Assembly (NCBI RefSeq): GCF_900474185.1
Contig: NZ_UCNW01000008.1
Location: forward strand, 372,001 to 436,000
Direction: 5' to 3'
DNA length: 64,000 nt
Origin: Synechococcus sp. UW69
Lineage (GTDB): Bacteria; Cyanobacteriota; Cyanobacteriia; PCC-6307; Cyanobiaceae
Shown: piece by piece, positions 39,111 to 41,908 of the stretch
How the letters are laid out: the number at the start of each line of letters is the position of its first letter
How positions within the stretch are numbered: position 1 is the first letter of the stretch
Program-made: the position numbers and the translations under genes
The notes under the pieces: model-generated
The model's input: the letters and a program-made list of their open reading frames with translations, nothing else
Told to the model about the DNA's origin: nothing
The model's database searches: none

Positions 39111-39785
39111 TTAGCCCAATTCAGCGGGCTCGACTCCTCTGAGGATCCGCAATGCAGCCATCGCGGCACCGTAGCCATTGTCGATATTCACCACCGTCAA
39201 CCCGGGGGCACAACTGGCGAGCATCCCTTCCAAAGCGGTCCTCCCCCCTGAGCTGATCCCATAACCAACCGAGACCGGGACGCCAATCACCGGCTGGGAG
39301 ACAAGACCGGCCAGTACCGTCGGGAGGGCGCCCTCCATCCCTGCGCAGGCGATCAGGATCCGAGCCGTTGCCAAACGGGGAAGTTGATCGAGAAGGCGAT
39401 GCAATCCGGCAACGCCAACATCCATCACAGGGTCAACGCCAATGCCATGGCAACGCAGGGCAAGAGCGGCTTCAGCCACCACAGTGCGATCACTGCTGCC
39501 TCCACTCAGCACCACCACCTCAGCAGGAGGCGGTGGTGCAGGAGGCAGAGAGCCCAAGGTCAGGCAGCGGGCATCAGGGTGCAGCTCAACCTCCGGCAAC
39601 ATCTCGAACACCCGTGCCGCCTTCTTGGCATCCACCCGGGTCACGAGCCCCAACTCTCCTGCTGTGGCAAAGGTCTCGAGGATGGCGATGATCTGATCGG
39701 CCGTTTTGTGTTCCCCCCAGATGGCCTCAACCATGCCCAACCGCTGGCGGCGCCGCAGATCAAGACGAGCATCAGGGATGTTCAC
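39111..39785 (-). CDS. larB: Nickel pincer cofactor biosynthesis protein LarB
   Basis: LarB carboxylates and hydrolyses nicotinic acid adenine dinucleotide, the first step to the nickel-pincer nucleotide of lactate racemase and related enzymes. The 224-residue protein shows the PurE/AIR-carboxylase-like C-terminal fold: VVVLSGGSSDRTVVAEAALAL, ILIACAGMEGALPTVLAGLV, then PVSVGYGISSGGRTALEGML. The N-terminus has AIWGEHKTADQIIAILE. The start is GTG 39785, overlapping the upstream stop by four bases. larC and larE are not in the window. Many cyanobacteria carry larB-like genes without a proven racemase. Confidence 0.88.
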   Translation of the reverse strand: MNIPDARLDLRRRQRLGMVEAIWGEHKTADQIIAILETFATAGELGLVTRVDAKKAARVFEMLPEVELHPDARCLTLGSLPPAPPPPAEVVVLSGGSSDRTVVAEAALALRCHGIGVDPVMDVGVAGLHRLLDQLPRLATARILIACAGMEGALPTVLAGLVSQPVIGVPVSVGYGISSGGRTALEGMLASCAPGLTVVNIDNGYGAAMAALRILRGVEPAELG

Positions 39786-40222
39786 TGCGGCAACAGTTCT
39801 CCCTCAAACACAAGGGGAAAGGGGTTGCCCTGGTTCTGTCCCGTGTGCTCACAGGCCAGCATCTCGAAGCGCGCCTGAACCCTCTCCACCTCCGCAGGAG
39901 GAATGGATTTCCAAGCCTCACGACTGCTCCAACGAATCAGCAGCGTCCCCTCCTCAGTTGCCGGATCCCAGAAGAGATCACGACCCAAAAATCCAGGCTG
40001 GTGCTTCAGCCAAGGCTCCCAGCTGCCGCGTTCCGCAACCATCCAATCCTCACGACTCTCCTGGGGCACCTTCAGCCGCAGGTGCTCAATCACGGCCACC
40101 TTGACACCAACTTGAAGGTCGGCCCATGCCTGATCCCGTGCCTCCGAAATCCCTCCCAACAACAGAACCAGTGCCAAACAAGGTCCGATGACCCTAAGCA
40201 AAACAAGCCTGAGTCGATGCAC
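39782..40222 (-). CDS. TIGR03792 family protein
   Basis: The 146-residue protein begins with a signal peptide (LRLVLLRVIGPCLALVLLLG, GTG start 40222) and then a ferredoxin-like domain of the cyanobacterial TIGR03792 family (VAVIEHLRLKVPQESREDWM, WLKHQPGFLGRDLFWDPATE, LLIRWSSREAWKSIP). The family resembles antibiotic-biosynthesis monooxygenase folds, but no reaction is known. It starts three bases after the trmD-ispF stop and overlaps larB, so it is inside a tight operon. Confidence 0.85.
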   Translation of the reverse strand: MHRLRLVLLRVIGPCLALVLLLGGISEARDQAWADLQVGVKVAVIEHLRLKVPQESREDWMVAERGSWEPWLKHQPGFLGRDLFWDPATEEGTLLIRWSSREAWKSIPPAEVERVQARFEMLACEHTGQNQGNPFPLVFEGELLPQ

Positions 40223-40225
40223 GAT

Positions 40226-41440
40226 TCAGCTCCTCTGCAGAAGTGCCACAGCCTGGCAACTGATGCCCTCTTCCCGTCCTTCTGGACCCAAGCCTTCGTT
40301 CGTGGTGGCCTTCACACCCACAGCGTCAGCGGCAATTCCGATGGTTGATGCCATCGTGCTGCTCATCGCCGCGATATGCGGTTTGAGCTTCGGGCGCTCG
40401 GCAATCACAACTGCATCGATATTCACCACCGACCAGCCACGCTCTTTGACCAGCTTCACCACTTGATCCAGCAGCTTCAAGCTGTCGGCTCCTTTCCATT
40501 GGGGATCGGTCGGTGGGAAGTACTTGCCGATATCGCCAAGGGCTAGGGCCCCGAGCAACGCATCCATCACGGCATGCACCAGCACATCGGCATCACTGTG
40601 ACCATCAAGACCAAGACCGTCGGGATGCTCCAGGCTCACGCCCCCGAGGATGAGGGCCCGTCCGGGCACCAGCCGATGGATGTCGTATCCGTTGCCGATG
40701 CGCAGCTCCATGCCGGGGTCTAGGGGGTCGAAAGGGACATCCATTGTTGCGGCCTGCCAGCGGGAGAACAGGTCGGGCCGCCGTTCGCGGGTCCGCTGCT
40801 CCCGCTGCTCCTGACGCCACCGAGCGATGGCACCGTGGTCGCCACTGCGCAGCACATCGGGGACGGTCATGCCGCGGAAGTCAGCGGGGCGGGTGTAATG
40901 CGGGTGTTCGAGGAGGAGTGCACTGTGGCTTTCCTCCACCAGCGAATCAGCCGTCCCCACCGTGCCGGGAAGTAGGCGAACAACACCGTTGATCACCGTC
41001 ATCGCCGGCAGCTCACCGCCAGTGAGGACGAAGTCACCCATCGACACCTCCTCATCCGCCAAGCCGCGAATCCGCTCGTCGAACCCCTCGTAGTGTCCGC
41101 AGAGGAAGACCAGTTGATCGTGGTCGGAGGACCAGCGTTGCAAATCCTGCTGCTGTAGGGGACGCCCCTGTGGTGACATCAACAGCACCCGGCTGCGGGA
41201 GCTACGGGGGATTTCCTCCATCGCGGCGAACACCGGTTCCGGCTTGAGCACCATGCCGGCACCACCGCCATAGGGCTCGTCATCCACCTTGCGATGGCGA
41301 TCGGTGGCGAAGTCCCGGGGATTGTGCAGGTGCAACTCGGCAATTCCTGCCTTGAAGGCACGCCCGATCACCCCCAGCTCCAGCAGAGGGGCAAACGCCT
41401 GCGGCGCCAGACTCACCACATCCAGGCGATAGGGCGCCAT
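40226..41440 (-). CDS. trmD-ispF: TrmD-IspF fusion: tRNA m1G37 methyltransferase + MECDP synthase
   Basis: One uninterrupted frame of 404 residues joins two enzymes. Residues of about 1-230 are TrmD, the trefoil-knot methyltransferase for G37 of tRNAs (MDVVSLAP-type start, [44 protein letters not shown]). Residues 244-404 are complete IspF, which forms 2-C-methyl-D-erythritol 2,4-cyclodiphosphate in isoprenoid synthesis ([52 protein letters not shown]). The junction has an internal ATG at 40711 (Met244), so a separate IspF could also be made. IspF normally works as a trimer and TrmD as a dimer, which makes the fusion structurally odd. Confidence 0.93.
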
Positions 41441-41446
41441 GCCGCC

Positions 41447-41908
41447 TCAGGCCGCGGGTTTGGACACCCTTCGGATGTCCGTGCAGAAACTGCCCTGAAC
41501 CGGTGTTCCTTGCGCATCAACAGCTGTGGTGCTGCGCAGGCGCAGGTTGACCCGCGTGAACCAGATCCTCTCCTGCACACACACCCCGTCGGCCCGGCTG
41601 AGGTTCAACTCCATGCTGCCGTCGGGCCAGAACCTCCAGCTACCAGGAGCATCACCATCCAGGATCAGCTTTCCATCAGCGGCGAAGGTGAGGGTGCTGC
41701 AGGTCCCTCCAGGGGCCTGCACCTGCAGTTGACCGAGAGCCCCCTGCTCTTCCACGCAGCGGACAGTGAGTTCACCCCGCTCGCTGCTGTGCCAGTCGTC
41801 ATCACCTCCGGCAGCCAGCTCAAAACAGCTGCGAAGGCTCATCCACTCACCGTCGCAGAGATTCAGAAAGGAGGCAGGGTCTTCCGGGGGAAAGGCTTGT
41901 TCGCTCAT
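41447..41908 (-). CDS. CpcS/CpeS-family phycobiliprotein lyase
   Basis: The 153-residue protein has the lipocalin-like pattern of S-type bilin lyases: FLNLCDGEWMSLRSCFEL near the N-terminus (tryptophan and Ser-x-Arg motif), a central GSWRFWPDGSMELNLSRADG and the C-terminal ERIWFTRVNLRLRS then SFCTDIRRVSKP. Such lyases attach phycocyanobilin or phycoerythrobilin to Cys82-type sites of phycobiliproteins. Which member (CpcS, CpcV, CpeS or CpeU) cannot be settled without comparison. It sits between a PhyH-type oxygenase and trmD-ispF in a housekeeping operon rather than a pigment cluster. Confidence 0.78.
   Translation of the reverse strand: MSEQAFPPEDPASFLNLCDGEWMSLRSCFELAAGGDDDWHSSERGELTVRCVEEQGALGQLQVQAPGGTCSTLTFAADGKLILDGDAPGSWRFWPDGSMELNLSRADGVCVQERIWFTRVNLRLRSTTAVDAQGTPVQGSFCTDIRRVSKPAA

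Follow-up and report, generated by a model that had tools for sequence, protein, structure and literature searches.

A single reading frame in Synechococcus sp. UW69 joins the tRNA m1G37 methyltransferase TrmD to the isoprenoid-pathway enzyme IspF, and comparison with related genomes indicates that this one gene probably has two products: the TrmD-IspF fusion and a free IspF that would be initiated from a retained internal start codon. The frame lies in a stretch of 64,000 nucleotides, called the window here, and all coordinates refer to it (Table 1). The fused frame is conserved among related genomes, and its internal start is conserved at the level of the codon and in its surrounding context. 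From these patterns we infer that both proteins are produced and that they assemble with one another.

In the reading we prefer, an old trmD-ispF gene pair would have become a single reading frame through loss of the intervening stop codon. Initiation at the trmD ATG (41440) would then yield the 404-residue fusion, with an estimated mass of 44 kDa. The former ispF start codon (40711) would have been held by selection as an internal start. It would require no Shine-Dalgarno sequence, would sit in a weakly folded stretch and would give rise to a free IspF of 161 residues with an estimated mass of 17 kDa. Both products should be able to enter the same IspF trimers, such that the gene would supply tethered TrmD along with surplus free IspF, and the two enzymes would not need to be equally abundant. 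Tethered subunits would be diluted by the free form, which would also allow more IspF than TrmD to be produced.

Table 1. Positions in the window of the trmD-ispF gene, its parts and its immediate neighbours.
Feature	Position	Strand	Details
Fused trmD-ispF coding sequence	40226..41440	minus	ATG start; 404 aa and stop codon
TrmD domain, complete	40766..41428	minus	residues 5-225; Pfam, NCBIfam equivalogs, PDB alignment
Linker	40703..40765	minus	residues 226-246, 21 codons; probable initiation region of the internal start
IspF domain, complete	40238..40705	minus	residues 246-401; Pfam YgbB, TIGR00151
Internal start codon ATG (Met244) of the predicted free 161-aa IspF	40709..40711	minus	NTG conservation across fused loci
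Upstream in-frame ATG (Met233)	40742..40744	minus	alternative internal start, judged unlikely
Upstream neighbour, CpeS-like protein	41447..41908	minus	Pfam CpeS, C-terminal part; same place in many relatives
Downstream neighbour, TIGR03792 family protein	39782..40222	minus	begins 3 bases past the fused stop codon

The fused frame and where it occurs

The first-pass annotation had described TrmD and IspF as joined in one frame of 404 codons with both domains looking complete, and both statements hold for this minus-strand gene. Pfam tRNA_m1G_MT matches residues 26-222 of the fused protein (E 1.6e-62) and Pfam YgbB matches residues 246-401 (E 8.7e-66; 221.5 bits against a cut-off of 26.7). Two NCBIfam TrmD equivalogs pass their cut-offs (NF000648 with 296.4 bits against 220, and TIGR00088 with 291.4 against 195), their spans being residues 5-225 and 5-232, and TrmD chains from the PDB align to residues 5-234. 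The IspF equivalog TIGR00151 passes as well (212.9 bits against a cut-off of 116.45). Among 27 fused proteins, motifs of the TrmD knot and catalytic region (Y57-G60, G135-D136, G141-E143, R155 and Y182-P185) are invariant, as are D253, H255, H289 and the ATTNE motif (A378-T379-T380-N381-E382) of IspF. The metal ligands of E. coli IspF are D8, H10 and H42. TrmD E170, in the sequence EESH, occupies the place of the catalytic D169 of E. coli, a position that is E in one and D in two of three solved TrmDs.

Apart from the fused frame, nothing in the 2.37-Mb genome matches the query at E <= 0.001. An AlphaFold model of the fused protein, built with the 27 sequences, has a mean pLDDT of 67.1 and a pTM of 0.44; pLDDT falls below 50 at residues 234-244, but also at several stretches within the TrmD and IspF domains, so the model is no safe guide to the linker or the assembly. 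On the same strand, era, a phytanoyl-dioxygenase-like frame (judged by eye) and the CpeS-like gene lie upstream, and the TIGR03792 family gene and larB lie downstream. Gene order around trmD-ispF is much alike in named family members, whether or not the two genes are fused, and the TIGR03792 neighbour keeps its place in both states. The CpeS-like neighbour covers just positions 113-170 of the 170 in the Pfam CpeS profile, and no NCBIfam model matches it at E 0.001.

Conservation of the fused frame in related genomes, which the first-pass annotation had proposed as a check, is extensive. Among 400 family genomes sampled, an unbroken frame with a single match is present in 32 of the 34 listed genomes of the genus, UW69 included, and complete single-contig genomes are among those with the open frame. 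The other two (63% and 58% complete) gave no match. Beyond those listed there are 11 more genomes with no match, which the genus-first order of the list suggests belong to other genera. Of 317 trmD genes collected, distinct by their trmD DNA and with near-identical strains counted separately, 131 are fused. All of these fusions belong to the family of UW69 or to named relatives of the Synechococcus/Prochlorococcus type. Synechococcus sp. WH 5701 and Prochlorococcus sp. MIT 0701 are among the cultured strains that carry the fusion.

Other genera of the family present a range of states. The two genes may be fused, may share a frame interrupted by one stop codon, may be adjacent in different frames or may be 0.3-8 kb apart. 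A single in-frame stop between the domains is found outside the genus in groups g34, g18, g5 and others. In g34 (L111, L112, L341-L345) this stop is a TGA, and these loci are one substitution short of fusion. One locus from a single-contig genome (L135, G054) has an apparent frameshift within the IspF domain that breaks the fused frame; the cause is either gene decay or a mistake in the assembly.

Like the fused gene, unfused cyanobacterial pairs, such as those of Nostoc, Vulcanococcus and Cyanobium, place trmD ahead of ispF, often with less than 200 bases between them. They differ in having a stop codon, or 0.3-8 kb of other genes, between the two. Outside the family (Nostoc, Leptolyngbya and others) the genes are often adjacent, and a stop codon separates every pair that was read. 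In 23 of 45 genomes from another family of the same class, coordinates place trmD and ispF far apart or on separate contigs. Since adjacency without fusion occurs outside the picocyanobacterial family, the gene pair is older than the fusion. Fusions in Nostoc and some Prochlorococcus, which the lengths of open frames had suggested, were rejected when the DNA showed stops between the genes.

A stop codon missed in this assembly, or a frameshift introduced into it, could in principle mimic such a fusion, and outside the genus some relatives do show one in-frame stop separating the domains. However, the frame is open in 32 of the 34 listed genomes of the genus, complete ones included, so it is neither chance nor a frameshift error. 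In addition, linkers vary between lineages yet stay in frame. The first-pass annotation had named stops in relatives combined with a local read error as the pattern that would count against fusion; the stops are found outside the genus, and within it the frame is open throughout, wherever the gene was found. The probability of an artefact is negligible.

The internal start codon and its context

The internal start can be followed across fused loci by its position relative to the R[IV]GNG motif at the beginning of IspF. In the 131 distinct fused loci, the codon at -3 from this motif is ATG in 93, GTG in 29 and TTG in four, that is, NTG in 126. Four loci of the WH 5701 group (L034, L119, L308 and L309) have an ATG at -1 instead, and L113 alone has a start codon at neither place. 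Codon alignment covers 130 of these loci; L295, which does not carry the exact motif, was read separately and has GTG. Isoleucine never occurs at -3 in fused loci, and the 33 loci with valine or leucine always encode it by GTG or TTG.

This codon choice is unusual for the genes concerned. Of 32 genes with valine or leucine at -3, L032 is the only one that uses the NTG codon for most occurrences of that residue. Across the 130 aligned loci, the -3 column is the only one of 36 comparable Met/Val/Leu columns to consist entirely of GTG and TTG (32/32), the next best reaching 76%. In the L132 group of Prochlorococcus (20 rows), -3 is the sole all-GTG column among 20 with conserved valine (19 GTG, the twentieth row being TTG); four other valine columns also use a single codon, GTT or GTA. 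L132 itself has one GTG among the 22 valine codons of the matched stretch, and this is the -3 codon. The product of own-gene codon frequencies for exclusive GTG/TTG use at -3 is 10^-9.0 over 12 rows and 10^-4.8 over eight tree clades when the largest value per clade is taken, figures that overstate the case somewhat because a valine or leucine one step from ATG begins as NTG. The comparisons of alignment columns and the codon counts, like the pairing and folding means, the dN/dS values and the synonymous profiles given below, treat related rows as independent.

Free IspF proteins indicate what the -3 position requires. In 72 of them the nearest ATG lies further upstream, and none of these has a start codon at -3, where the residues are P (40), T (18), S (4), L (3), C (3) and others (4). 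Thus, there is no demand for a particular, hydrophobic amino acid at this position. In 79 free ispF genes the nearest ATG is at -3 itself, which marks -3 as the ordinary ispF start. The survey sought ATG alone; five rows had none, two of them with GTG at -3, and these stand outside the 72.

L113 (G002) comes from a genome that is 85% complete and in 320 contigs. Its linker ends in ...TDLSTCNPEL, with a TTG at -8 as the nearest candidate and no ATG, GTG or TTG within three codons of RIGNG. This locus is a natural negative control. With neither -3 nor -1 occupied by a start codon, it suggests that an internal start is dispensable in at least one fused lineage. Met233 was considered as another internal start and rejected. 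It stands at -14 in the window and has a matching methionine at -11 or -12 in most of the genus, and an ATG codon at -11 is present in just 27 of 130 fused loci.

The context of the internal start resembles that of free ispF genes. Pairing to the anti-Shine-Dalgarno sequence averages -5.3 kcal/mol at trmD starts over all loci, with 83% at or below -4, versus -1.7 kcal/mol (19%) at free ispF starts and -1.8 (16%) at internal starts. In GC-rich windows this contrast is gone (-3.0 at trmD starts and -3.1 at internal starts). Mean folding in GC-rich windows is -12.6 for free ispF starts and -12.9 for internal starts, compared with -19.9 for control internal ATGs and -20.7 for trmD starts. The corresponding values are -6.3, -7.1, -11.3 and -7.7 in the middle GC class, and -4.0, -3.6, -4.5 and -6.2 in the AT-rich class, where the difference is small.

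In 25 representatives the start window is on average less folded than 78% of windows from the same gene (p 4e-5). With GC-matched windows the figure is 73% (p 3e-4), five of the 25 being more folded than the median window, and the low folding may be due in part to linker composition. The internal start of UW69 has a Shine-Dalgarno pairing value of +0.4 and a folding value of -9.3 kcal/mol, and it is less folded than 96% of the windows in its gene. Scharff and others report that starts without a Shine-Dalgarno sequence are marked by an absence of structure and that internal AUGs are usually structured (PMC3121790).

Three groups have low synonymous divergence at the linker, which ranks 15 of 341, 13 of 340 and 6 of 335 windows in profiles built from 38, 17 and 19 rows matched for linker length. 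The L132 group, however, has its very lowest windows elsewhere, within TrmD. Linkers are 13-42 codons long in 130 fused loci, and their dN/dS of 0.41-0.58, versus 0.07-0.13 in the domains, indicates a loosely constrained protein sequence. Low synonymous divergence over a loose linker, together with the start context, suggests a signal carried by the nucleotide sequence at the point where a ribosome would need to initiate. The first-pass annotation had raised the possibility of dual products from the ATG at 40711, which is present as Met244. At the comparative level this proposal is well supported: an NTG stands at -3 in nearly all fused loci, with an ATG two codons later in four others, and codon usage, the free IspF proteins, synonymous divergence and RNA folding all point the same way.

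Gain, loss and fission of the fusion

The fused state appears to be labile across the family. A minimum-change count on a tree of the joined TrmD and IspF proteins (135 rows) gives at least 19 changes between fused and unfused states, a rough figure since many branches of this quick tree are weak, 53 of 132 inner branches are open and the outgroup does not form one side of a branch. Trees of the single proteins (156 rows) require at least 22 changes for TrmD and 19 for IspF. The joined tree includes 135 of the 156 representatives, which were drawn from 284 loci in which ispF follows trmD. Even within single groups (g56, g17 and g10) the state differs. The linkers of the WH 5701 group (...QEQQQGRSQMRIGNG), the G023/G069 group and L036 are unlike those of marine Synechococcus and Prochlorococcus, which suggests separate losses of the stop codon.

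Changes in the opposite direction also seem to have occurred. In unfused loci of the Prochlorococcus type, TrmD often terminates in a stretch resembling a remnant IspF N terminus, with a short Trp motif after it (...RIGNEYDIYPDW or ...DIPDPWFDD). These lineages therefore appear to have become unfused from a fused ancestor. Variants that end the protein are ...RIGNEYDIYPDW, ...(I)PDPWFDD and EDPWWD (L050, L055, L160, L166, L180, L183, L243, L248, L329 and others). There are 29 distinct TrmDs ending in the Trp motif, and the remnant can be placed in 21. The motif recurs in lineages with unlike linkers and may be functional or may mark a recombination site.

Between the TrmD tail and a complete free ispF, the loci that were read contain 0.3-6 kb of variable open reading frames. 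Such insertions are seen, for example, in L050, L055, L060, L156, L160, L167, L171 and L180, and some of the inserted frames are surface-sugar-like by eye (glycosyltransferase-, kdsB- and kpsF-like). The trmD/ispF junction in Prochlorococcus thus seems to be a recurrent site of fission and insertion. Integration at tRNA genes was rejected as the cause, as there is no tRNA in 17 loci scanned. Direct repeats common to the trmD tail and the ispF start are at most 11 bases long when about 90 bases on each side are compared in Prochlorococcus-type loci. Replacement by a distant ispF in unfused Prochlorococcus of g56 is not favoured: the TrmD (89%) and IspF (94%) of G161 are both near fused ones.

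Promoter-like DNA precedes the free ispF in L055, L060, L156, L162, L180 and L233, with TTATTGAATCACAGATGCGTCACAG in L060 and variants elsewhere, and contains TCACAG repeated at 11 bases. A similar element, TCACAGATAGGTCACA, follows the trmD tail in L160 and L234, and L237 has a variant of it. The spacing of the TCACAG repeats recalls that of a response-regulator site, for which this DNA is a candidate.

Alternatives, assembly and known systems

The simplest alternative is that only the 404-residue protein is made, with its domains acting independently on a flexible linker and the -3 codon persisting as a fossil of the old ispF start. A conserved fused frame and a loosely constrained linker fit this explanation, and detached genes lend it some weight: the NTG survives in 15 of 21 distinct TrmD tails that have lost their connection to IspF. 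The excess of NTG in fused loci over these tails is moderate (Fisher p 0.001, with related rows treated as independent), so part of the conservation is inertia, which we read as slowly giving way. However, the other six tails have lost the codon (AGG, GCT, TTA, ATA, GTT and TCC), changes from methionine to valine or leucine at -3 stay NTG in about eight clades against codon usage, and lowered synonymous divergence coincides with low folding at the same site. We regard production of the fusion alone as unlikely. Distinctly unlikely, too, is a transcriptional signal, in which a promoter inside the gene, or an RNA element, located within or ahead of the linker would yield a short mRNA for ispF and the following genes. 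In one group the lowered synonymous divergence spans the end of TrmD as well as the linker, and frequent use of internal transcription starts is reported for Prochlorococcus MED4 (PMC5607370). Yet positions 40000-41700 contain no sigma-70-like site in a scan of low power (0.2 expected by chance), and a promoter alone leaves the strict NTG at one codon unexplained. It could, on the other hand, work alongside the internal start.

The first-pass annotation had also suggested that fusion would link translation fidelity with isoprenoid supply, and this part is not supported. Under such coupling, the tether would place m1G37 methylation and isoprenoid supply in one assembly, and translation fidelity would follow isoprenoid flux. 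Isoprenoid supply also feeds the i6A37 modification of tRNA. In favour of coupling, several lineages gained or retained the fusion, and both enzymes look complete; against it, TrmD and IspF share no substrate, the fused state differs between close relatives, the genes are adjacent without being fused in Nostoc and others, and the linker is not conserved. Coupling of this kind is very improbable. Given unfused neighbours elsewhere, a loose linker and a changing state, co-expression or a tolerated tether fits no worse than functional coupling.

Two products from one gene, the reading preferred here, would also bear on assembly. TrmD is a dimer and IspF is a trimer, so the fusion alone could form hexamers, as is reported for IspDF, or networks. 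It is possible, although we offer this only tentatively, that the fusion and free IspF are made in a set ratio and co-assemble. Trimers bridged by TrmD and diluted by free IspF would then resolve the mismatch between dimer and trimer without endless networks, and the retained internal start would be what makes a fusion of unlike oligomers tolerable. Such an arrangement would explain why the fusion originated repeatedly while the start codon was hardly ever lost.

The nearest known relative of this architecture is IspDF. In that fusion, as in TrmD-IspF, IspF is C-terminal and its N-terminal partner is a dimer, as opposed to the IspF trimer. The title of a 2004 paper reportedly refers to a hexameric assembly of IspDF. 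The Campylobacter jejuni enzyme is described as one bifunctional protein with a crystal structure (PMC5821942). The IspDF structures 1w55 and 8xhu in the PDB match the IspF half of the fused protein, whereas the score for the NCBIfam IspDF model NF006899 falls short of its cut-off (213.1 against 417 bits), with only the IspF half matched and no IspD domain. TrmD-IspF differs from IspDF in that its partner is a tRNA methyltransferase from outside the isoprenoid pathway, and in keeping an internal start codon for free IspF, a feature looked at in TrmD-IspF alone.

Internal in-frame starts that produce the C-terminal part of a protein as a second product are reportedly found in genes for SpaO and AerR isoforms and in rpn genes. 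In cas8b, such a start is reported to give Cas11b (PMC11899642). Genes of the cas8b/Cas11b type resemble trmD-ispF in having one frame and two products (predicted for trmD-ispF) with a common C-terminal part. They differ in that the second product of trmD-ispF would be a whole metabolic enzyme, which is encoded by a separate gene in relatives, and in that its internal start, at which translation is predicted from comparative data, is the old ispF start codon. Among the papers listed from the open-licence PMC literature on trmD and ispF, no title or opening part of an abstract describes a TrmD-IspF fusion.

Because the old start codon is kept, this case is of greater interest than a simple fusion. 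In abundant marine photosynthetic bacteria, two core enzymes of different symmetry have been joined in what amounts to a natural, repeated experiment. If the internal start is used, then free IspF is an unannotated product in the fused strains, and trmD-ispF would provide a clean comparative case of a fusion that keeps independent control over the dosage of its second half. The survival of fusions between unlike oligomers thereby becomes a directly testable question.
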